From the NCBI GenBank assembly GCA_028687545.1, contig JAQTZZ010000005.1, positions 62,001 through 126,000 on the forward strand: DNA of 64,000 nt. Reading direction: 5' to 3'. The notes under the pieces were generated by a model, which worked only from the letters and a program-made list of their open reading frames with translations, was not told where the DNA came from and did not search any database. This document shows, in pieces, positions 280-61,149 of the stretch. The stretch comes from Candidatus Wallbacteria bacterium. Its GTDB lineage: Bacteria; Muiribacteriota; JAQTZZ01. Within the stretch, counting starts at the first letter, position 1. The number at the start of each line of letters is the position of its first letter. A program made the translations under genes and the position numbers.

Positions 280-738
280 CTACTTTGGCCAGTAGCAGTT
301 TCTGATGTATGGTTTATATCGCAGGATTGCTTCCTTTATACAGCTCAACACTTTAATGTCCATATTGTTCCAGTCGCAGTACCATAATTCACAGGTGATT
401 TCATTGTGCTCGAAGATCTGTATTCTACCCTGAAGCACACGCTGCAATGATGATCCGGCAAAAGGCTGCCAGCCACGCAAAAACTTGAGCCTGTCAACCT
501 GCAGATGCGGCAGGTTTATTCTGTAAGAAAAAAGAACCCCAAACATCCTGTTTTCAGTTGTGAATGCAAGATAAGAAGTCTTGTGCTGGGATGATTGTCC
601 ATGGCCCTGAACTGCATCTTCGGTTGCACGATCTGGATCAATGCTGAATTGGGTGACTTTTTTTATTGTTCTGACTTGCCGGGTTTTAGAAATCATGACT
701 GAATAAATAACAATCCCCATGCCAAAAGCCAGAAGCAC
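280..738 (-). pseudogene. Hypothetical membrane-anchored protein, probable frameshift near its start
   Basis: The frame encodes about 152 residues opening with a hydrophobic segment (LLAFGMGIVIYSVMI), then a basic linker and a soluble domain. The only start in this frame is a GTG at 738 without a ribosome site, or an ATG at 720 that would cut into the hydrophobic segment. An ATG at 751 in another frame reads MKFL and then diverges. Removing one T near 740 would join it as MKFL-VLLAFGMGIV, a clean signal anchor. I therefore infer a one-base insertion, either a real mutation or an assembly error. The protein family is not recognised. It precedes the partial gene at 1-262 by 18 bases. Confidence 0.5.
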
Positions 739-902: not shown

Positions 903-929
903 TGGCACGGGGATTGTTATTTGATCTGC
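903..929 (+). promoter_or_regulatory. Sigma54-like promoter element upstream of AAA ATPase gene
   Basis: TGGCACG starts at 903. Ten bases after its GG comes GT (916-917) inside ATTGTTA. This matches the -24/-12 layout of sigma54 promoters except for GT instead of GC. The predicted transcript start is near 929, leaving about 30 bases to the ATG at 961. Four other copies of this element precede genes in the window. Confidence 0.5.
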
Positions 930-3956: not shown

Positions 3957-4601
3957 TTGGACAACCTTAAGACCGAGAAAGATATTGATGCTTTTTATAC
4001 TGGAATCAACGATCTAATTAAAGCATTTCAAAAACATCCATTCGATTTCCTTTATGAGCGCGATCTTCAAGCTTTTTTGTACTATAAATTGTATAAGAAA
4101 TTTCGAGAAGACCGAGTTGAAATTGGTGGTGGATGTTATAAACCGATGGACTATGGTGGTGGAAAATCAATACAAACTGCTCTTGTTCATTGTGAGTATC
4201 CATGTGAAGAGCGCTTTAAAAAAATGGATGTCGTTTTAATTGATAGAAACTATATCATCCATTATGACAAACTAGCCGACGGTTCAGCAAACGATCCTTT
4301 CTGGCGGCAACCTATCCGAGCTGCTGTTGAGTTAAAATATCTTATGCTTGGCGATATTCCTGCTATTAGATTTGGAGAAAAACAAGGTATAAAAAGAGAT
4401 GTTGAGAAACTTAAGAAATATCGTGAGGAAAAATGTATGAATCGGCCATTTCTAGGAATTAGTATTCTTTTCATACAACCTATTAATCAAAAAATTAACT
4501 ATTTCAACATTGGTCAAGAGATTGAGAACAGTAATCATCCGAGTAAAGGATTGTTTGTTTTTTTGGTTAAACCAGATGAATTCGTAAAGTTTGAGCTATG
4601 A
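3957..4601 (+). CDS. Putative PD-(D/E)XK-fold nuclease-like protein, AT-rich
   Basis: This 214-residue protein is recognised only by fold-like motifs: an N-terminal glutamate in YERDLQAFLYYKL, an aspartate in KKMDVVLID and then AAVELKY. This is the E...D...ExK order of PD-(D/E)XK nucleases. A related ERxLQAxLY motif occurs in the protein at 10560-11180, suggesting the same family. An in-frame TGA lies at 3954, so the start must be the TTG at 3957, close behind GGAGGA. ATG frames nearby stop quickly. Base composition is clearly more AT-rich than its neighbours, which suggests recent transfer. The substrate is unknown, and nuclease activity is inference. Confidence 0.6.
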   Translation: MDNLKTEKDIDAFYTGINDLIKAFQKHPFDFLYERDLQAFLYYKLYKKFREDRVEIGGGCYKPMDYGGGKSIQTALVHCEYPCEERFKKMDVVLIDRNYIIHYDKLADGSANDPFWRQPIRAAVELKYLMLGDIPAIRFGEKQGIKRDVEKLKKYREEKCMNRPFLGISILFIQPINQKINYFNIGQEIENSNHPSKGLFVFLVKPDEFVKFEL

Positions 4602-4640: not shown

Positions 4641-6077
4641 TTAAAGATACTTTTTAAGCGTATTTATCGAAATATCCAGCGCTCTGGCAGTGTGCGTCTG
4701 GTTCTTGTTCATCAGTTCATAAATTTTCCTGATGTATTCGATGGAATGCTGTTCCAGAGTCTGGATGCCGGTGTCGCTTTCTTTGCCGGGCGCGGCGCTG
4801 AAACTCCAGTTATTCCTGATTACGGCATGGATCAGGCGATTATGCAGTTCACGCACATTGCCAGGCCAGTCCAGTGCCATCAGCTTCTGCTTCATGTTTT
4901 TATCAAGCTGTATCAGTTCTCGCTCCCGCATGTCGCAGATACTGCGCAGGATATGATGGGCGATCAGCGGGATGTCTTCCCTGTGTTCCCGAAGGGCAGG
5001 GGTGAGGATGGTCGTTTCTGACAGTCTGTAATATAGATCAGACCTGAATTTTCCTTCATTGCAGGCTCTGGCCAGGTCGCGGTTTGTGGCAGAGATGATG
5101 CGCACGTCCACCTTGAGATCTGCGCTCCCGCCCAGGCGTCGGAAACGCTTGTGATCAAGAACCCGCAAAAGTTTAGGCTGAAGATCGAGTGGCATTTCTC
5201 CGATCTCGTCCAGGAACAGTGTGCCTGTGTCAGCTTCTTCCATCAGCCCGATCCTGCGCTCAGTCGCGCCTGTGAACGAGCCTTTCTCATGCCCGAACAG
5301 CTCGGAATCCAGGAACCCTGCCGTGAAATTGGCGCAATTGACAGCTATGAAAGGCCTGCATTTTCGTTTGCTGGCCCTGTGAAGTGCCAGAGCCACGGTT
5401 TCCTTTCCAGTACCTGTTTCGCCATGAATGAGCACTGAGCAGAGGCTGTCCATGCCAATGTCCGCAATGCTGTCCTTGAGATCCTTCATCACCTGAGCCC
5501 TGCCCAGCAGATGATTGCTGGAGAATCCCTTGCCAGCCTTGACTGCCTTGTCGTCTGCGTCCAGATCCGAAATGCCTGCCAGCTTACTGATAAAAGCAGG
5601 GTATACATCATAGTCCCGCAGGTTGAAAACCCTGAATGCGGCGTCCTCGTAAAGATTCGCCCATCCTTGATCCTTATCGAGGCAGCAGAGTATGGATTTG
5701 TCAGCGTCTTTTTTCAGATAATCAGCAGTGAGTTCAGAAATTTCCTTTGAAAAATCCTCCCTGAACTCCAGGTTTTTCAGTTTAAGCCCCTTGATTTCAG
5801 ACAAGTCGAGCTTGCAGTTCAGCCAGAGAATTGTGCAGCCTGAGCTGGATAGCTTCCGCAGGGCTGTGGACATTTCCTCGAATCTCTCATAATAGCCAAG
5901 GCCGAGTATCACGATCTGCGCGCCTTTATCGTGACTGAGAAAATCCAGCTTGTCAGGAAGCTTGCCAGCGCTGCTGATCACAAGATTAACTTCAGGGTGA
6001 GCTTTCAAGTACAAAGCAGCGGCTGTAGCGCCTTCAGAGCTGAGCATGCTGATCAGGTATGTTTTGATGTTTTTCAT
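4641..6077 (-). CDS. Sigma54-dependent activator with DHH-like N-terminal domain
   Basis: This 478-residue NtrC-class enhancer-binding protein activates sigma54 RNA polymerase by ATP hydrolysis. The central AAA domain has Walker A GETGTGKE (near 219-226), the sigma54-contact loop GSFTGA (near 265-270, normally GAFTGA) and Walker [10 protein letters not shown]. The C-terminus ends in a Fis-type helix-turn-helix ([16 protein letters not shown]). The N-terminal 180 residues are not a receiver domain. They follow the pattern of DHH phosphoesterases ([30 protein letters not shown]), with the catalytic Asp and His positions replaced. I infer a ligand-sensing, catalytically dead DHH domain. No strong ribosome site precedes the ATG. 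It may control the sigma54-like elements seen in this window. Confidence 0.88.
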
Positions 6078-6154: not shown

Positions 6155-6562
6155 TCAGGCTTTCATGACAGTCTTTTTGAATTGAGCAGCTGAAATGATT
6201 TTTGTTCCAGTGAATTTCTCGATGCTTCTAAGGTCTTTGTCGCCTGTAATGAGATATTCTGCTCCAGTTTGGGCGGCACATGCCAGGAAGCAGGTATCCT
6301 TAGGATCTCTTGGAAAATTAAGATTATTATCAGGTACTTCAACAGTTACAAGTTCACGGAAAATATTCTTCCAGTCTGCTACCGTATCAGCGGAAAGACC
6401 AAACTTCTTTCTGCCAAGTACTTCATTGTATTCTTTGAGGATTTCCTTTGAAGCGACCCATTCAATTTCTGGATTCTGAATGATGAAAGAGATTACTTCT
6501 TCAGGAATTCTATCTCTGATGATTGCTGAAATCAGTATGTTTGTATCAACGATTACCTGCAT
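6155..6562 (-). CDS. PIN-domain toxin (VapC-like ribonuclease)
   Basis: This is a 135-residue PIN-domain protein of the type II toxin-antitoxin class. The first acidic residue is in MQVIVDTNILISAI, and a later acidic cluster is in DPKDTCFLACAAQ and YLITGDKDL, as expected for the metal-binding site of a PIN ribonuclease. I chose the ATG at 6562 because the conserved VDTN strand begins there and AGGA lies just upstream. A longer frame from 6595 adds a non-conserved leader. The start overlaps the antitoxin stop by 17 bases, which fits coupled translation. It resembles the single-PIN toxins of COG1569. Confidence 0.82.
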   Translation of the reverse strand: MQVIVDTNILISAIIRDRIPEEVISFIIQNPEIEWVASKEILKEYNEVLGRKKFGLSADTVADWKNIFRELVTVEVPDNNLNFPRDPKDTCFLACAAQTGAEYLITGDKDLRSIEKFTGTKIISAAQFKKTVMKA

Positions 6563-6794
6563 TTTTCCTGCGAACTGCTTTGACTTCTCCGGCAATAACC
6601 TTCTCGCTGATCGTGGTCCTGATCTCTTTCCTGGTTTTCGAAACCAGACCCTTGAATTTCTTCAGCAGATTCTGCTTCTTTTCTTCCTCTGCGATGATCA
6701 GAACTTCGACTTTCTGGCCTGGAGTAAAAGGAAGATCCTTCAGGATCAGACTCCCAGCATTTTTTATGGTGATATACTTTCGGTAAGCAAGCAT
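6546..6794 (-). CDS. Antitoxin paired with PIN toxin
   Basis: This 82-residue protein lies directly upstream of the PIN toxin and overlaps it. Its first half (KYITIKNAGSLILKDLPF, then PGQKVEVLII) resembles an AbrB/MazE-type swapped-hairpin DNA-binding fold. The basic second half (KKFKGLVSKTRKEIRTTI and onward) would wrap the toxin. GGAGGG seven bases before the ATG fixes the start. A TATAAT -10 box on the minus strand at 6814-6819 is a likely promoter. It lies next to the divergent sigma54-like element at 6827, so the two promoters may interfere with each other. Antitoxin identity rests on context and size. Confidence 0.7.
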   Translation of the reverse strand: MLAYRKYITIKNAGSLILKDLPFTPGQKVEVLIIAEEEKKQNLLKKFKGLVSKTRKEIRTTISEKVIAGEVKAVRRKNAGNR

Positions 6795-6826
6795 CTGCCC
6801 TCCTCATGAATTAATTATAGCTGAAA

Positions 6827-6853
6827 TGGCACGGAAAGTGTTAATTAATTTTC
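6827..6853 (+). promoter_or_regulatory. Sigma54-like promoter element upstream of DUF2779 operon
   Basis: TGGCACG starts at 6827, and GT (6840-6841) follows GG at ten-base spacing, in GTGTTAATTAATTTTC. The region downstream of the GT resembles the copies at 12686, 12489 and 61149. The predicted start is near 6853, about 80 bases before the ATG at 6935. The element sits between the toxin-antitoxin promoter and the nuclease operon. Confidence 0.5.
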
Positions 6854-6934
6854 AACGGGTAACTTACGTTTACTTTAGAGAAAATTAAAGACATAATACA
6901 ACAGAAATTCTCTGAGTAATGATCGGAGGTTATG

Positions 6935-8416
6935 ATGCAGGACTCGAATCGGAAAAAAGGGTATGGTCTCTCCAAATCCAAGTACACTGCCTGGCTGCAG
7001 TGCCACAAAAGGCTCTGGCTGCAGGTGCATAGACCAGACCTGCTGGAACAAGCGGAAATGCCTGCAGAGGTTTTTGTCGGATACCAGATAGGCGACCTAG
7101 CCAGGGGCCTTTTCCCTGGCGGAGCGCTGGTGGAATTCGACGGACAGGACATCAGCCGGCAGCTTGCTCTGACTCAGGAACTGCTTGCGAGCAAAACGCC
7201 CGTGATTTACGAAGCTGCCTTTGATCATGAGGGCCTGTTCTGCAAGACTGACCTGCTGGTCAGGAAAAGGGATGGATTCGAGCTTTATGAGGTTAAGGCT
7301 TCAGCCAGTGTCAAGGATTATCACTATAATGACCTGGCAGTGCAGGTGCATATCCTGCGCGGAGCGGGTCTGAAGTTGAAGAAAGCCTTTCTCATGCACC
7401 TGAACAATCAGTACATCAGGCAGGGTGAGTTGGAGCTGGACAAGCTCTTCAACCCTGTGAATCTGACTGATGAACTCGGAGCTAATCTGGAAAAAATAAG
7501 CGCAGAGGCCGAAAAAGCGAGGGAAGCGCTTGCTGCCGGCATGCCTGAAATCGGGATCGGCTCTCACTGCACTGATCCATACAAATGCGAGTTCTTCGAT
7601 TTCTGCAGAGAGCATCTGCCTGAATACAATGTATTCGGCCTGTGCGGTTCGAATGCTCTCAAAGCCAGGCTTTACAAGCAGGGAATCCTGAAATTGGAGG
7701 AAGTTCCGCTCAATGAACTGAGCAGGAATCAGCAGATCCAGGTGGAATGCCATATCTCAAAAGACAGGCATCTTGAGCCTGAAAATATCAAAGATTTTCT
7801 GAATACACTGAGTTACCCGCTCTGTTTCCTTGATTTCGAGACAGTGCAGAATGCCATACCTCTCTATGACGGAGACTGGCCATATCAGCAGAACCCGTTT
7901 CAATACTCGCTCCATATCCTGGAACGCGAAGGCGGCAAGCTGATTCACAAGGAATTTCTGGCTGAGCATGGCAAAGACCCAAAGCCTGAATTCCTGAAAA
8001 ACCTGCTCAGGGACCTGCCGGAAAAAGGCTGTGTGCTGGCATACAACAGTTCGTTTGAAGCAACCCGGCTCAGAGAACTTGCTGAAATCTATCCAACCCA
8101 CAAAGTCAGGATCGAAAAAATCATTGACTCCATGATCAATCTGGCCACTCCATTCCAGAAACGCTGGGCATATGACTGGAAGCAGTGCGGCACATACTCC
8201 ATCAAGGAAGTGCTGCCTGCCTTTATTCCAGACATGAGTTACGACAATCTCGAAATCGGCAATGGCGACCAGGCCATGAAAGCCTATGCGGATCTGCCTG
8301 GCATGACTCCGGAAGAAGTCACCAGTACCAGGAAAGCGCTGCTTGTTTACTGCGGACAGGATACGCTGGCTATGGTGAAGCTGTGGGAGAAGTTGAGGGA
8401 GATGGCTGAGGGATGA
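6935..8416 (+). CDS. DUF2779 protein: RecB/Cas4-like nuclease fused to exonuclease-like domain
   Basis: This 493-residue protein starts with a RecB-type nuclease signature: KSKYTAWLQCHKRLW near residues 13-28, and a catalytic-type ELYEVKA near 117-122. A cysteine cluster (HCTDPYKCEFFDFC, near 212-225) probably completes an iron-sulfur site, as in Cas4/AddB-type nucleases. The C-terminal half is the DUF2779 region, with an RNase H/DEDD-like FLDFET near 298 and a late YCGQDTLAMVKLW. GGAGG is best spaced to the second of two adjacent ATGs, so I chose 6935. It begins a three-gene operon with the genes at 8420 and 9604. A DNA-processing or defence role is plausible but unproven. Confidence 0.82.
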   Translation: MQDSNRKKGYGLSKSKYTAWLQCHKRLWLQVHRPDLLEQAEMPAEVFVGYQIGDLARGLFPGGALVEFDGQDISRQLALTQELLASKTPVIYEAAFDHEGLFCKTDLLVRKRDGFELYEVKASASVKDYHYNDLAVQVHILRGAGLKLKKAFLMHLNNQYIRQGELELDKLFNPVNLTDELGANLEKISAEAEKAREALAAGMPEIGIGSHCTDPYKCEFFDFCREHLPEYNVFGLCGSNALKARLYKQGILKLEEVPLNELSRNQQIQVECHISKDRHLEPENIKDFLNTLSYPLCFLDFETVQNAIPLYDGDWPYQQNPFQYSLHILEREGGKLIHKEFLAEHGKDPKPEFLKNLLRDLPEKGCVLAYNSSFEATRLRELAEIYPTHKVRIEKIIDSMINLATPFQKRWAYDWKQCGTYSIKEVLPAFIPDMSYDNLEIGNGDQAMKAYADLPGMTPEEVTSTRKALLVYCGQDTLAMVKLWEKLREMAEG

Positions 8417-8419
8417 GAA

Positions 8420-9607
8420 ATGAACAAAAAGCCTGAACTGAACATTTTCGATTCTCTATTCGGCTACCGGCCCAGACCGGATCGTAAGCCCATGGAGGAT
8501 TTTCTGACTCAGGCTTTTGCTTATGTTCTGGGAAAGAATAAGGCTATTCTGAACTCATATCTGCAAATGATTCATGGCAAACCTCAGATTCAGTCTGAGG
8601 ACTTTGAAATTATCACACAACAATCTTTAGACACCTGCAGAATTGATCTGATGATCTATTGGACACATTCAGGAAACCGGCACTGCCTGTTTGTGGAGCA
8701 CAAAACGGGGAGCAGCCCTTGGGAAGACTGCAATGATCAAGGCGATCCGATAAATCAGATACAGCATTACTGCGATGTTCTAAAAAAACAGAATTCGCTG
8801 GCTGGAGATCAGAAATGCCATGTTGCGCTGATCAGCCCTTTGCTTTTAAAGGATTATTCCAGAGCAGCAATCAACAGACCGGAATATCTCGGTAATTTCA
8901 CATGGGGTAATTTGGCAGGGCTGCTTGAAAAATTTTCGTCTGAAAACGAAATCATAGCAGAACTTCTTGAATTTTTAAGGAGGCAGGGTATGACATCTGA
9001 AAACTTCACTCTTTCCGAACTTGCCAGCATCGGTATGTACATAACCTATCTCGACAAGCTGAATTCGTTGAACCTGCGAATCAGCGAAACTTTTACCGGG
9101 CCACTGGAGGCTTTTGCCAGGGAAAAAGGGCTTGAATACAAAATGCTCTGGGGTGAACTCATTTACAGTTTCCATTATGGAGTTCTGCTTTTTTCCGGAC
9201 CAGACCCGAATGCTTCACCAGTCTGGCTGATCTGCGGGATTTCCAACAGGAACAAGAGCTGTGTTGATGATCAGGGCTATCCGGCTTTAATGCTGAAAGA
9301 CCAGGCAATACCTGACGTTGAATGTGGGGTGATAGTGGGGGAAGTGGATTTCAACAAGCTGAACGAAATGCTCGGCAAAGCTGAATTGAGCGGATTCGAG
9401 CAAATCGATGGAACGAAATATAAAAATCCGTTCTACGCAATACTCGCAAGAAAACCCTTAAGCGATTTCCTCTGCTCCGATCACCATGATACGGGCATAC
9501 TGGAATTTCTTGGTAAAGGGATCGCTCAAATTCTGGCTGAAAATTCCGTGTTCCGTAAGATTGTCGATGAATTCCGGCAGACAGAAAACACTGCGGAGAA
9601 AACATGA
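8420..9607 (+). CDS. PD-(D/E)XK nuclease superfamily protein
   Basis: The 395-residue protein begins three bases after the DUF2779 gene stop, so the two are an operon. Its N-terminal third carries a PD-(D/E)XK arrangement: CRIDLMIYW (Asp near residue 74), LFVEHKTG (E-x-K near 92) and INQIQHY (a QxxxY-type motif), as in RecB-like nucleases. The C-terminal two thirds have no recognised motif and may bind the substrate or a partner. The next gene overlaps its end by four bases (ATGA). Proteins of this kind occur in restriction and phage-defence loci and also as isolated hypothetical genes, so the role here is inferred only from company. Confidence 0.65.
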   Translation: MNKKPELNIFDSLFGYRPRPDRKPMEDFLTQAFAYVLGKNKAILNSYLQMIHGKPQIQSEDFEIITQQSLDTCRIDLMIYWTHSGNRHCLFVEHKTGSSPWEDCNDQGDPINQIQHYCDVLKKQNSLAGDQKCHVALISPLLLKDYSRAAINRPEYLGNFTWGNLAGLLEKFSSENEIIAELLEFLRRQGMTSENFTLSELASIGMYITYLDKLNSLNLRISETFTGPLEAFAREKGLEYKMLWGELIYSFHYGVLLFSGPDPNASPVWLICGISNRNKSCVDDQGYPALMLKDQAIPDVECGVIVGEVDFNKLNEMLGKAELSGFEQIDGTKYKNPFYAILARKPLSDFLCSDHHDTGILEFLGKGIAQILAENSVFRKIVDEFRQTENTAEKT

Positions 9608-10209
9608 GCAAGGAGATTCCAGATCCCTTTCTCTGCCGTGAACTCGGCCAGATACTGGACGACAGGCCACCAGACTGTCCTTGGCATTGCCACAGATGCA
9701 AACATGGAAACTTGAAGAAGCAGTGGAAAAGGTACAAGAAACCTTTCAAGCCCTATACCAAAGAAGAATTTGCAGGTTTCAACAGGCTGAACAGGAAGCT
9801 GACTGATCTGGAATTTGCGATCCAGAAGGAAGTGATCAGGCTGAGGGCTTTGGTGAACAGGCGGATCAGAAGCAAAGACCGCTTCCTGAGCGACCATGAA
9901 ATTGAAGTGGAGATCGGCTTCATATTGCGCAAGTCAGACCCGGACTACGATAAGCTTGAAGGTGATCCCTGTTACTATCTGAGAAGCAACAGTGGATTTG
10001 CTTTCACTAACAAGGTGTGTCTTTATTGTGACGGCAATGACTGGAGCGAAAGCTATGGAATTGACAGTTCCTTTCCGCTCCTGGACAAAAAATGCTGCTA
10101 CATGTTCCACGAACTGTGCGACGATTTTCATGACCGCCGGGTTTTGCTCAGGTTCGGGGAGATCTGGACTGATGTGAAGCTGGTGCTGCAGAATTTCAGG
10201 AGGATATGA
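9604..10209 (+). CDS. Cysteine-rich hypothetical protein, third gene of nuclease operon
   Basis: This 201-residue protein shares a four-base ATGA overlap with the upstream nuclease gene, so translation is coupled. I do not recognise the family. It has an N-terminal CPWHCHRCKHG cluster, a basic helical or coiled-coil segment rich in Lys and Arg (residues about 38-95), then VCLYCDGNDW and KKCCYMFHELC. The two cysteine/histidine clusters look like zinc-binding sites, suggesting nucleic-acid binding. No signal peptide or membrane segment is visible. Being the last gene of an operon with two nuclease-fold proteins, it could be a specificity or accessory subunit. Confidence 0.65.
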   Translation: MSKEIPDPFLCRELGQILDDRPPDCPWHCHRCKHGNLKKQWKRYKKPFKPYTKEEFAGFNRLNRKLTDLEFAIQKEVIRLRALVNRRIRSKDRFLSDHEIEVEIGFILRKSDPDYDKLEGDPCYYLRSNSGFAFTNKVCLYCDGNDWSESYGIDSSFPLLDKKCCYMFHELCDDFHDRRVLLRFGEIWTDVKLVLQNFRRI

Positions 10210-10314: not shown

Positions 10315-10533
10315 ATGACATGCACGATTGCCGTTCAAAAGAAGCTGCTTGACGAAGCCTGCAGGATTGGCGAGCATAAATCCGAGAAAGAAGCGGTTCT
10401 GGCAGCGCTGAAAGAATATATCCAGCGCAGGAAACAGATGAACATTATCGAATTGTTCGGGCATGTGGACTACGATCCGAATTATGATTACAAATCGCAA
10501 AGAAGCGGTGGACAAAAGGTGACATTAAGTTAA
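10315..10533 (+). CDS. VapB-type antitoxin without its toxin
   Basis: This 72-residue protein matches the VapB antitoxin family (Pfam VapB_antitoxin type): LLDEACRIGEHKSEKEAVLA, then ALKEYIQRRKQ and a tail IIELFGHVDYDPNYDYK. The N-terminal part forms the DNA-binding dimer and the tail normally wraps a VapC toxin. GGAG five bases before the ATG supports the start. The usual overlapping vapC is absent. Instead the reading ends in an atypical tail (GGQKVTLS) and an AT-rich nuclease-like gene follows 27 bases later. This looks like an orphan antitoxin left after replacement of the toxin gene, or a recombined pair. Confidence 0.8.
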   Translation: MTCTIAVQKKLLDEACRIGEHKSEKEAVLAALKEYIQRRKQMNIIELFGHVDYDPNYDYKSQRSGGQKVTLS

Positions 10534-10559: not shown

Positions 10560-11180
10560 ATGTCAGACGTTTATGAAAAAATCAAAAAAGCTTGGCAGTT
10601 TGATGTGAAATTTGACTATGAAAATGGGTTAATAAATTCTGAACGTTGCCTACAAGCTTCCCTTTACAGAGCTCTGCGTTTATATTTCAATGAAGAAAAA
10701 ATATTCGTGGAACCTCAATTTTATGCTGAAGGTACGATCCCTGACATCATTATATGCTCGAACAAAAGGATCCAAGTAGTTTTTGAAATAAAATTCATGC
10801 CAGATACATATCCTTCATTTGAAGAAGATTTGCTTAAATTATGTCGCTTATCTGAATCGGAATCACCAGAAAAAAATTCGGTTAAAGAATTGGACCCATG
10901 TACAGGTAAGTTTTCGAAAAAAGAGGATAAAAAATATTCACTGTGTAATGAAACAACAAAGTTCATTTTTGCGGCTATTGGGCAAGGATATGCGATAGCT
11001 GATTCAATTGACTCGCTGAAAGTAGACGGTCTGAATAAAAAGAAAATTAAGAGCTACTTTGAAGAAAAAAACTTAGAGTCGAGACTTCCTGAAAGATTCA
11101 TATTGCTATATGGAAAACTGCCAAGTTCCGAAAACCAAAAAAAAATTGAATTTATTATAGAAAAAAACTATGACGCTTAA
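10560..11180 (+). CDS. Putative PD-(D/E)XK-fold protein, AT-rich
   Basis: This 206-residue protein is preceded by a strong GGAGG. It carries SERCLQASLYRAL, then TIPDIIICSNKR and VVFEIKFMP, the PD...ExK layout of PD-(D/E)XK enzymes. The ERxLQAxLY motif is shared with the protein at 3957-4601, and both are markedly AT-rich, so they are probably distant relatives with a similar transfer history. No transmembrane or signal segment is present. It occupies the place where a vapC toxin would be expected after the VapB gene, raising the possibility that it is the functional partner. Nuclease activity is inferred from motifs only. Confidence 0.6.
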   Translation: MSDVYEKIKKAWQFDVKFDYENGLINSERCLQASLYRALRLYFNEEKIFVEPQFYAEGTIPDIIICSNKRIQVVFEIKFMPDTYPSFEEDLLKLCRLSESESPEKNSVKELDPCTGKFSKKEDKKYSLCNETTKFIFAAIGQGYAIADSIDSLKVDGLNKKKIKSYFEEKNLESRLPERFILLYGKLPSSENQKKIEFIIEKNYDA

Positions 11181-12462: not shown

Positions 12463-12489
12463 GAAAATGAATTAACAAGAAGCGTGCCA
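12463..12489 (-). promoter_or_regulatory. Sigma54-like promoter element, leaderless geometry
   Basis: On the minus strand TGGCACG begins at 12489 and GT (12476-12475) follows GG at ten-base spacing within CTTGTTAATTCATTTTC. The predicted start at about 12463 is directly beside the ATG at 12462. The same geometry is seen at 61149-61123. Confidence 0.5.
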
Positions 12490-12685: not shown

Positions 12686-12712
12686 TGGCACGGGAAGTGT
12701 TAATTCATTCTC
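12686..12712 (+). promoter_or_regulatory. Sigma54-like promoter element upstream of pseudokinase/TPR gene
   Basis: TGGCACG starts at 12686, with GT (12699-12700) at ten-base spacing from GG, in AGTGTTAATTCATTCTC. The predicted start is near 12712, followed by GGAGG at 12729-12733 and the ATG at 12739. It closely resembles the copy at 6827. Confidence 0.5.
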
Positions 12713-12738
12713 AACAATAAAATTCAATGGAGGTCAGG

Positions 12739-14289
12739 ATGAAAGGAAAAGGGGAGAAAGAAAAGTTGAGTTTTTTCAAGGATTTTATTCATTGTGTTTG
12801 GCACTATGACCATTGCCTGCTGCTTTACTTGCTGGAAACTGAGACAGGTAAAGTCGAACGGAAAAGAACGCAGCACTTTCTGGATCAGAATCCACCGGAC
12901 GAATTCTCCCTGCCTTTCACATTGCTTCACAGAATTCTGGACTTTATCTGTGAAGAACATGGCAAAGGGCTGGTCCATGGCAAGCTGTCCTGGTCGGATA
13001 TCTTTCTGACAGATGATAAGAAAATTGTGCATCAGGTTTTTCGAGCATCTGAAGAAGACAGGGCTGGGTTAATGGAAAAAGATGTATTCTTTGTTTCAAA
13101 GTACATGGACAGCTTTACTCTCCAGGGAAAACACTTTGAATATCCGGCCGACAAGAAAAAACTTCTGTCTATTCTCAAAGCCAGGCTGGTTGCAGGTGCG
13201 GCTGTAGCCAATGTCTTTGCCAGGGCCTGCATCGCCATGTCCTGCGGGGATTACAGGGAAGCTCTCAGGATCATGGGAAAACCGGGTGTGACTGAGTTTT
13301 TTCCAGCGCATTTGAATCTGGCCAGGGCTGCCTGCTGGCATCAACTGGGAAAAGATGATGAAGCAACCATTGAGCTTGGCCGTGAGATATCTAGCAATAA
13401 TTTCACTTCAGACCTGGACAGGCTTTTTATCAAGCTTTCTGGCAGCAATTGGGATGAGCTGGTGGCAGCCCACTTGCGAATTCAAGAGCCGGTTTTTATT
13501 CATCAGTTTCTTTTTTCTGCTGATGACAGGATGTCCATTGCTTCTGTCCTGCTGAAGTACGCTGAACTAGAGCCTGCTGATTATCTGGAGATCATAGGGT
13601 CTGAGAAAAAAATGGAACTGCTGAATCTACATCTCGGGGTGGTTCTTGAAAAAGATGTTCCCGTCAGAGCTATGCAATATTTTTATGATGTGCTGGAATC
13701 CTCTGGAACTGACAAACAGGTCAATTGCTGCAAAACCTGCTCGGGTAAGCATCTCTTTGACCTGCTTCTTTCGCTTGGATGGTATGAGAGAGCTCTTGAA
13801 TTTATGAATACCTATCCTGCATACACTGTTAACCCTTGCGTCCAGGTTTTTGAAACTAATCTCTGGAAGGGAAAGGAAGGCATGGTTGAAGTCATGGAAA
13901 AACTCACCCAGTCTGTGCTTGACGATTCCGATAAATCAATCCTGCTATGCATGATAGGACAGTTCAAGCACAACAGAGAAGACATTGACGGGGCGATTGA
14001 ATGTTTCATGGAAAGCCTGAATGAAAATCCGCATAGCATCGATGCCGCAAAAGAGCTTATCAAATGCGGCTACCCTGGGTCCTGTGATCGGATTTTTGAT
14101 TTCCTATACCAACGCCATCTGGAAAATCCGGACAATCTGAATCTTCTGCTGTTCACGATCATGTTTCTGGATAACGAATCCGGATATTTCGAGAAGACAC
14201 CGGACATAACGCCTGAAGCTTTGCTTGCAAAAGCGCTGGTGCTGAAATCCGGAGGTAGGGAGAAAGCGCTGGAGACATTGCAACAATGA
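12739..14289 (+). CDS. Pseudokinase-like protein with C-terminal TPR-type repeats
   Basis: This protein has about 516 residues. The N-terminal 150 residues contain GLVHGKLSWSDIFLTDDKK, which aligns in pattern with the kinase segment HxDLKPxNILL, but the catalytic Asp is replaced by Lys and no glycine loop is seen. It is therefore a degenerate kinase fragment. The rest is alpha-helical with TPR-like units (ARACIAMSCGDYREALRIM, IGQFKHNREDIDGAIECF), implying a protein-binding scaffold. GGAGG five bases before the second ATG favours the start at 12739 over 12727. No membrane segment is seen. A sigma54-like element precedes it. The partner could be the Ser/Thr kinase at 34428, but that is speculation. 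Confidence 0.6.
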   Translation: MKGKGEKEKLSFFKDFIHCVWHYDHCLLLYLLETETGKVERKRTQHFLDQNPPDEFSLPFTLLHRILDFICEEHGKGLVHGKLSWSDIFLTDDKKIVHQVFRASEEDRAGLMEKDVFFVSKYMDSFTLQGKHFEYPADKKKLLSILKARLVAGAAVANVFARACIAMSCGDYREALRIMGKPGVTEFFPAHLNLARAACWHQLGKDDEATIELGREISSNNFTSDLDRLFIKLSGSNWDELVAAHLRIQEPVFIHQFLFSADDRMSIASVLLKYAELEPADYLEIIGSEKKMELLNLHLGVVLEKDVPVRAMQYFYDVLESSGTDKQVNCCKTCSGKHLFDLLLSLGWYERALEFMNTYPAYTVNPCVQVFETNLWKGKEGMVEVMEKLTQSVLDDSDKSILLCMIGQFKHNREDIDGAIECFMESLNENPHSIDAAKELIKCGYPGSCDRIFDFLYQRHLENPDNLNLLLFTIMFLDNESGYFEKTPDITPEALLAKALVLKSGGREKALETLQQ

Positions 14290-61122: not shown

Positions 61123-61149
61123 AAAAATGGATTAACAATTTCCATGCCA
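61123..61149 (-). promoter_or_regulatory. Sigma54-like promoter element, leaderless geometry
   Basis: On the minus strand TGGCATG begins at 61149 and GT (61136-61135) follows GG at ten-base spacing, in AATTGTTAATCCATTTTT. The predicted start at about 61123 is directly beside the ORF6N ATG at 61122. Geometry and downstream sequence are almost identical to the copy at 12489-12463. Confidence 0.5.

Follow-up and report, generated by a model that had tools for sequence, protein, structure and literature searches.

A candidate sigma-54-controlled operon around a DUF2779 dual nuclease in a Wallbacteria genome, probably assembled from independently mobile genes

The window, by which we mean the whole 64,000-nucleotide stretch of Candidatus Wallbacteria DNA that was analysed, carries three closely spaced genes that encode a DUF2779 protein (gene 1), a PD-(D/E)XK nuclease-type protein (gene 2) and a Cys-rich protein (gene 3; Table 1). 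All three lie on the same strand, with a 3-nt gap between genes 1 and 2 and an ATGA overlap between genes 2 and 3, and they are probably carried on one transcript. An earlier, sequence-only reading of this DNA had described the three genes as coupled and had counted two nuclease-type proteins among them. The open reading frame coordinates bear out the first point, and the domains and active-site residues described below bear out the second. That reading had also placed a PIN toxin–antitoxin pair divergent from genes 1–3, and we find both genes of the pair on the opposite strand. The toxin matches TIGR00305 with 75.3 bits against a cut-off of 29.15, and the 82-aa open reading frame that overlaps it is a putative type II antitoxin. 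A search for Rfam families and tRNAs found none in the window, and scans for sigma-70 promoters and terminators returned matches at chance level.

Table 1. Genes and sigma-54-like boxes at the locus, with positions counted from the first nucleotide of the window and profile matches given as E values.
Feature	Position	Strand	Remarks
Gene 1, DUF2779 protein, 494 aa	6932-8416	+	Predicted Cas4/RecB-like Fe-S nuclease domain (N-terminal) and DEDDy-type 3'-5' exonuclease domain (C-terminal)
Gene 2, PD-(D/E)XK nuclease-type protein, 395 aa	8420-9607	+	PF14281 0.0036, below cut-off; motif invariant in three homologues
Gene 3, Cys-rich protein, 201 aa	9604-10209	+	Without family match
Putative antitoxin, 82 aa	6546-6794	-	Divergent from gene 1; overlaps PIN gene from the upstream side; without family match
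PIN-domain toxin	6155-6595	-	PF13470 4.9e-17; TIGR00305 4.4e-21
Sigma-54 activator (bEBP), Fis-type C-terminus	4641-6077	-	PF00158 1.2e-64; GSFTGA motif read from translation
Tandem-AAA ATPase with winged-helix domain, 963 aa	961-3852	+	PF00004 3.6e-45 in two stretches; PF22977 5.2e-29
Box TGGCACGGAAAGTGTT	6827-6842	+	90 nt before gene 1; 25/28 identical to the 12686 box
Box	903-918	+	Before the tandem-AAA ATPase gene
Box	12686-12701	+	Before TPR protein 12727-14289
Box	709-724	-	Inside ORF 280-738 as called
Box	12474-12489	-	One of five local boxes

Gene 1 encodes a member of the DUF2779 family (PF11074, E = 1.8e-41; 141.8 bits, cut-off 23.3). Its N-terminal part also matches Cas4 (PF01930, 8.4e-5, above the cut-off) and the PADLOC Cas4 models, weakly yet significantly. 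An alignment of 56 DUF2779 proteins was used to assess residue conservation. Both the PD-(D/E)XK triad (D107, E120 and K122) and the DEDDy-like exonuclease signature (D301-x-E303, E376 and Y473xxxD477) are intact in gene 1. D107, K122, D301, E303, E376, Y473 and D477 are each kept in 55–56 of the 56 sequences, and E120 is found in 51 of them (E or D in 55). Four cysteines in the 1+3 pattern of Cas4 and AddB (C24, C213, C219 and C225) are present in 54–56 of the 56, and the gene 1 sequence thus has both the four Fe-S cysteines and the PD-(D/E)XK core of Cas4. From these intact catalytic residues, we predict that gene 1 encodes a fusion of a Cas4-like Fe-S nuclease with a DEDDy-type exonuclease. 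It has the PD-(D/E)XK motif and the 1+3 cysteines in common with Cas4/AddB-type Fe-S nucleases and with the TM0106-family RecB-like nucleases (TIGR03491), but differs from these in its additional exonuclease domain. No match to cas1 or cas2 was found among the eight locus proteins scanned. PF11074 has been assigned to RNase H-like family F.17, putative 3'-5' exonucleases with a DUF83 domain (Majorek et al. 2014, PMC3985635), and because this architecture was predicted earlier, gene 1 is a protein of known type. It is a full-length family member, with the DUF83/Cas4-like N-terminal domain, the 3'-5' exonuclease-type domain and all catalytic positions, and it differs from the other members in being followed by two coupled genes that are absent beside them. 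We found no biochemical characterisation of DUF2779 proteins in the literature searched. The sister Wallbacterium genome (G001) encodes a DUF2779 protein that is 72–75% identical to gene 1 (G001:C133, 2477-3319(-)) and has an in-frame loss of residues 136–360, which make up most of both nuclease domains. DUF2779 would therefore be dispensable in G001, and the loss itself could reflect decay or a low-coverage assembly artefact.

Gene 2 falls below the cut-off for PF14281 (PDDEXK_4), and E26, D76, E93-H94-K95 and Q113xxxY117 are invariant in three homologues, which outlines a RecB-like core. Direct searches found no gene 2 homologue in plasmids, phages, viral contigs or the phylum. One clear homologue was present in our sample of 382 genomes, a 379-aa protein with 31% identity in genome G276, where it stands isolated and the DUF2779 gene is on a different contig. 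Further relatives were sought with the G276 protein as the query. On a Shewanella plasmid, the homologue is embedded in a type I restriction operon, with the S gene on one side and the R gene on the other; on a Pseudoalteromonas plasmid, it lies near a HipA toxin gene and a WYL gene. Because its homologues sit in these other contexts, gene 2 appears to be a mobile PD-(D/E)XK nuclease that is not bound to DUF2779.

We also considered whether gene 2 belongs to PDC-S26. The PDC-S26/PDDEXK_4 proteins are single-gene defence candidates with a motif of similar kind, and an Arcobacter PDDEXK_4 protein that matches PADLOC PDC-S26 at 6.8e-50 is encoded 2 nt upstream of DUF2779, whereas gene 2 lies downstream. 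This identification was dropped, as gene 2 showed no convincing profile match to the Arcobacter PDDEXK_4 neighbours. Given that it has no match to the PADLOC PDC-S26 models, a sub-threshold PF14281 score and a downstream position, gene 2 is not demonstrably a member of this family. AlphaFold2 models of gene 2 (predicted with no alignment) and gene 3 (from two sequences) had a mean pLDDT of 37.5 and were left out of fold searches.

Gene 3 has a homologue with 54% identity in the sister genome (G001:C251, JAQTRI010000200.1). Its neighbours there are an AAA gene and unrelated open reading frames, and neither DUF2779 nor gene 2 lies beside it. An Aliarcobacter plasmid encodes a more distant homologue (29%), which is related in its C-terminal half only and is not adjacent to genes 1 and 2. 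A gene 3 profile found no further copy in the 382 genomes or the viral contigs. Gene 3 had been taken for a zinc-finger-like partner of the nucleases. Support for this is weak, and we dropped the idea because the cysteines are not kept in the Aliarcobacter protein.

The sequence-only reading had also noted a sigma-54-like element before genes 1–3, and this is confirmed by the box at 6827. The genome (4.54 Mb) contains 17 copies of the box pattern TGGCAYRNNNNNTGTT, compared with 3 of a reversed control, and five of the 17 are found in a 12-kb stretch around the gene for the sigma-54 activator. When boxes were placed at random, five in any 12 kb were reached in 1 of 200,000 trials, a figure that is somewhat optimistic because window sites were used to refine the pattern. 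Four of the five local boxes lie upstream of a gene start, the 724(-) box being the exception, and two such boxes lie upstream of the DUF2779 orthologue in G001. The -12 element of the box is TGTT, compared with TTGC in the canonical promoter, and the loose consensus TGGCACN5TTGC, with 3 mismatches allowed, was not above chance frequency. RpoN is encoded in both Wallbacteria genomes, so that a -24/-12 box, RpoN and an activator are all found at the level of sequence. The presence of RpoN and the clustering of five of the 17 genomic boxes around the activator make the 6827 box credible. We propose a candidate local sigma-54 regulon comprising the AAA ATPase, the DUF2779 operon, a DUF6915 protein and the TPR protein, in which RpoN would transcribe from the boxes and the activator is a candidate local regulator. 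The N-terminal sensor domain of the activator (residues 1–180) has no Pfam match; judged by eye, it bears a likeness to a degenerate DHH-type domain, which we offer as a candidate.

The same box also occurs at 61149(-) in the window and at seven further sites. Across both Wallbacteria genomes, the accessory genes behind it encode ORF6N and KilA-N proteins, a YhcG/DUF1016 nuclease and an IS200-like transposase, and recA is preceded by it as well. Several of these start codons lie 11–12 nt past the box, and the transcripts would therefore be near-leaderless.

We favour the reading that the locus is a sigma-54-inducible accessory nuclease operon built from independently mobile genes, and we consider this probable, though by no means assured. 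RpoN, probably acting with the activator, would switch on the operon, the gene for the tandem-AAA ATPase and another two genes. The Cas4/AddB-like Fe-S domain of gene 1 would cut or degrade one strand end and the DEDDy-type domain would trim 3' ends, a two-headed nuclease that may process broken or foreign DNA (or RNA). Gene 2, as a mobile nuclease, and gene 3, as a mobile accessory protein, would have joined the transcription unit by capture in this lineage, and they do not have to work with gene 1. The substrates of gene 1 and its role in DNA processing or defence are ones that we infer. The tight gene coupling, the domains and the intact active sites argue for this reading, as does the published prediction of Cas4-like DUF83 and 3'-5' exonuclease domains in DUF2779 proteins. 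The clustered boxes, the RpoN genes, the boxes before the G001 orthologue and the gene 2 homologue within a type I restriction operon also speak in its favour. Counting against it are the G001 copy without residues 136–360, the refinement of the box pattern on window sites and the occurrence of the same box before recA and the ORF6N/KilA-N genes.

Plasmid relatives of gene 1 bear on what such an operon might do. On an Aliarcobacter cryaerophilus plasmid, DUF2779 is flanked directly by TatD, the last gene of a Qat cluster, and by a Mokosh-like (MkoA-like) gene; on an A. butzleri plasmid, it follows a PDC-S26 nuclease gene at a distance of 2 nt; and on a Planktothrix plasmid, it is beside MzaB-like and helicase genes. 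The earlier statement that DUF2779 genes occur in defence-related loci therefore holds on plasmids, and this company makes a defence role for gene 1 plausible, in line with the operon that we favour. At the seven Arcobacter/Aliarcobacter plasmid loci, DUF2779 was seen in a variable cassette with, for example, Qat or Mokosh-like genes, in several cases flanked by genes for an SbcC-like ATPase and a dGTPase (dgt). This cassette is a probable defence hotspot.

The alternative that survives best is that these are ordinary stress-induced nuclease genes for DNA repair or recombination, with no role in defence. In Mycoplasma bovis, a transposon mutant of the DUF2779 homologue groups with DNA replication/repair mutants (PMC7373297), which is a better fit to repair than to defence; in the sample of 382 genomes, housekeeping genes adjoin many of the DUF2779 genes; and the box type before gene 1 also precedes recA. 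The mutant grouping and the housekeeping neighbours likewise weigh against our favoured reading. By contrast, the defence clusters that house the plasmid copies, and a patchy distribution (45 of the 382 genomes), speak against an ordinary repair gene, and we regard repair alone as a serious but somewhat unlikely explanation.

Alternatively, the real unit may be the DUF2779 nuclease together with the tandem-AAA ATPase, accompanied by WYL regulators on plasmids and by the sigma-54 activator here, with genes 2 and 3 as passengers. We collected all open reading frames within 6 kb of DUF2779 at 59 loci (the window, relatives, other phyla and plasmids), and nine more plasmid loci were fetched later as a check, giving 68 loci from many phyla. 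An ATPase related to that of the window was found near DUF2779 at seven of the first 59 loci (the window counted), compared with a rough expectation of approximately 0.5–1 from the ATPase density in 57 genomes; some of the loci are related. It was found at one of the nine later loci (Azospirillum), for a total of 8/68, and a WYL gene often accompanies it. WYL-family regulators lay near DUF2779 at six of the 59. The AAA, DUF2779 and WYL genes are contiguous in Rhodoferax and Diaphorobacter, a tandem-AAA gene follows DUF2779 on the same strand in G001, and in the window the ATPase gene, 3 kb from gene 1, has its own box of the same type. However, the ATPase is missing from most DUF2779 loci, spacing and orientation vary, and four genes separate the two in the window; we therefore think it unlikely that this pair is the functional unit of the locus. 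We would advance only with considerable doubt the broader suggestion that DUF2779 and the tandem-AAA ATPase form an undescribed and widely scattered module for defence or DNA processing, controlled by WYL proteins on plasmids and through a local sigma-54 regulon in Wallbacteria, and that individual lineages add further nucleases to it, gene 2 among them. Nonetheless, this pairing is the most interesting lead remaining, and its association with WYL, along with the dense cluster of sigma-54-like promoters, is more promising and can be tested.

The sequence-only reading had suggested that genes 1–3 form one undescribed system and had named a neighbourhood search for conserved co-occurrence as the check. 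Apart from the window itself, none of the 68 DUF2779 loci had gene 2 or gene 3 beside DUF2779, and, across these neighbourhoods, the 382 genomes, the plasmids, the phages and the viral contigs, no other locus combined as many as two of the three families. Searches of viral contigs (genes 1–3) and phage records (genes 1 and 2) gave no match. The three genes thus occur together only in this genome, the outcome that the sequence-only reading itself had named as a refutation, and because co-occurrence was seen nowhere else in the search, we interpret the trio as a local assembly and not as a newly found defence system. The idea that the dual nuclease, the PD-(D/E)XK nuclease and the Cys-rich protein work jointly as an anti-phage system of three components is largely refuted by these results and by gene 3 standing alone in the sister genome. 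It is very improbable despite the overlapping genes, the promoter-like box common to all three and the occurrence of DUF2779, and of one gene 2 homologue, in defence islands elsewhere. A plausible call of a new defence system is thereby corrected as unsupported, and the DUF2779 dual nuclease, whose active sites are intact, is assigned to a known family.

Other small genes of related kinds were observed nearby. A VapB-type antitoxin gene lies at 10315-10533(+) (PF09957, 2.2e-12), with no recognisable VapC, and is followed by an open reading frame at 10560-11180 that has no family match and whose PD...EIK motif recalls PD-(D/E)XK nucleases. A 214-aa open reading frame at 3957-4601(+), also without a family match, contains a D...ELK motif and is possibly another small PD-(D/E)XK protein.
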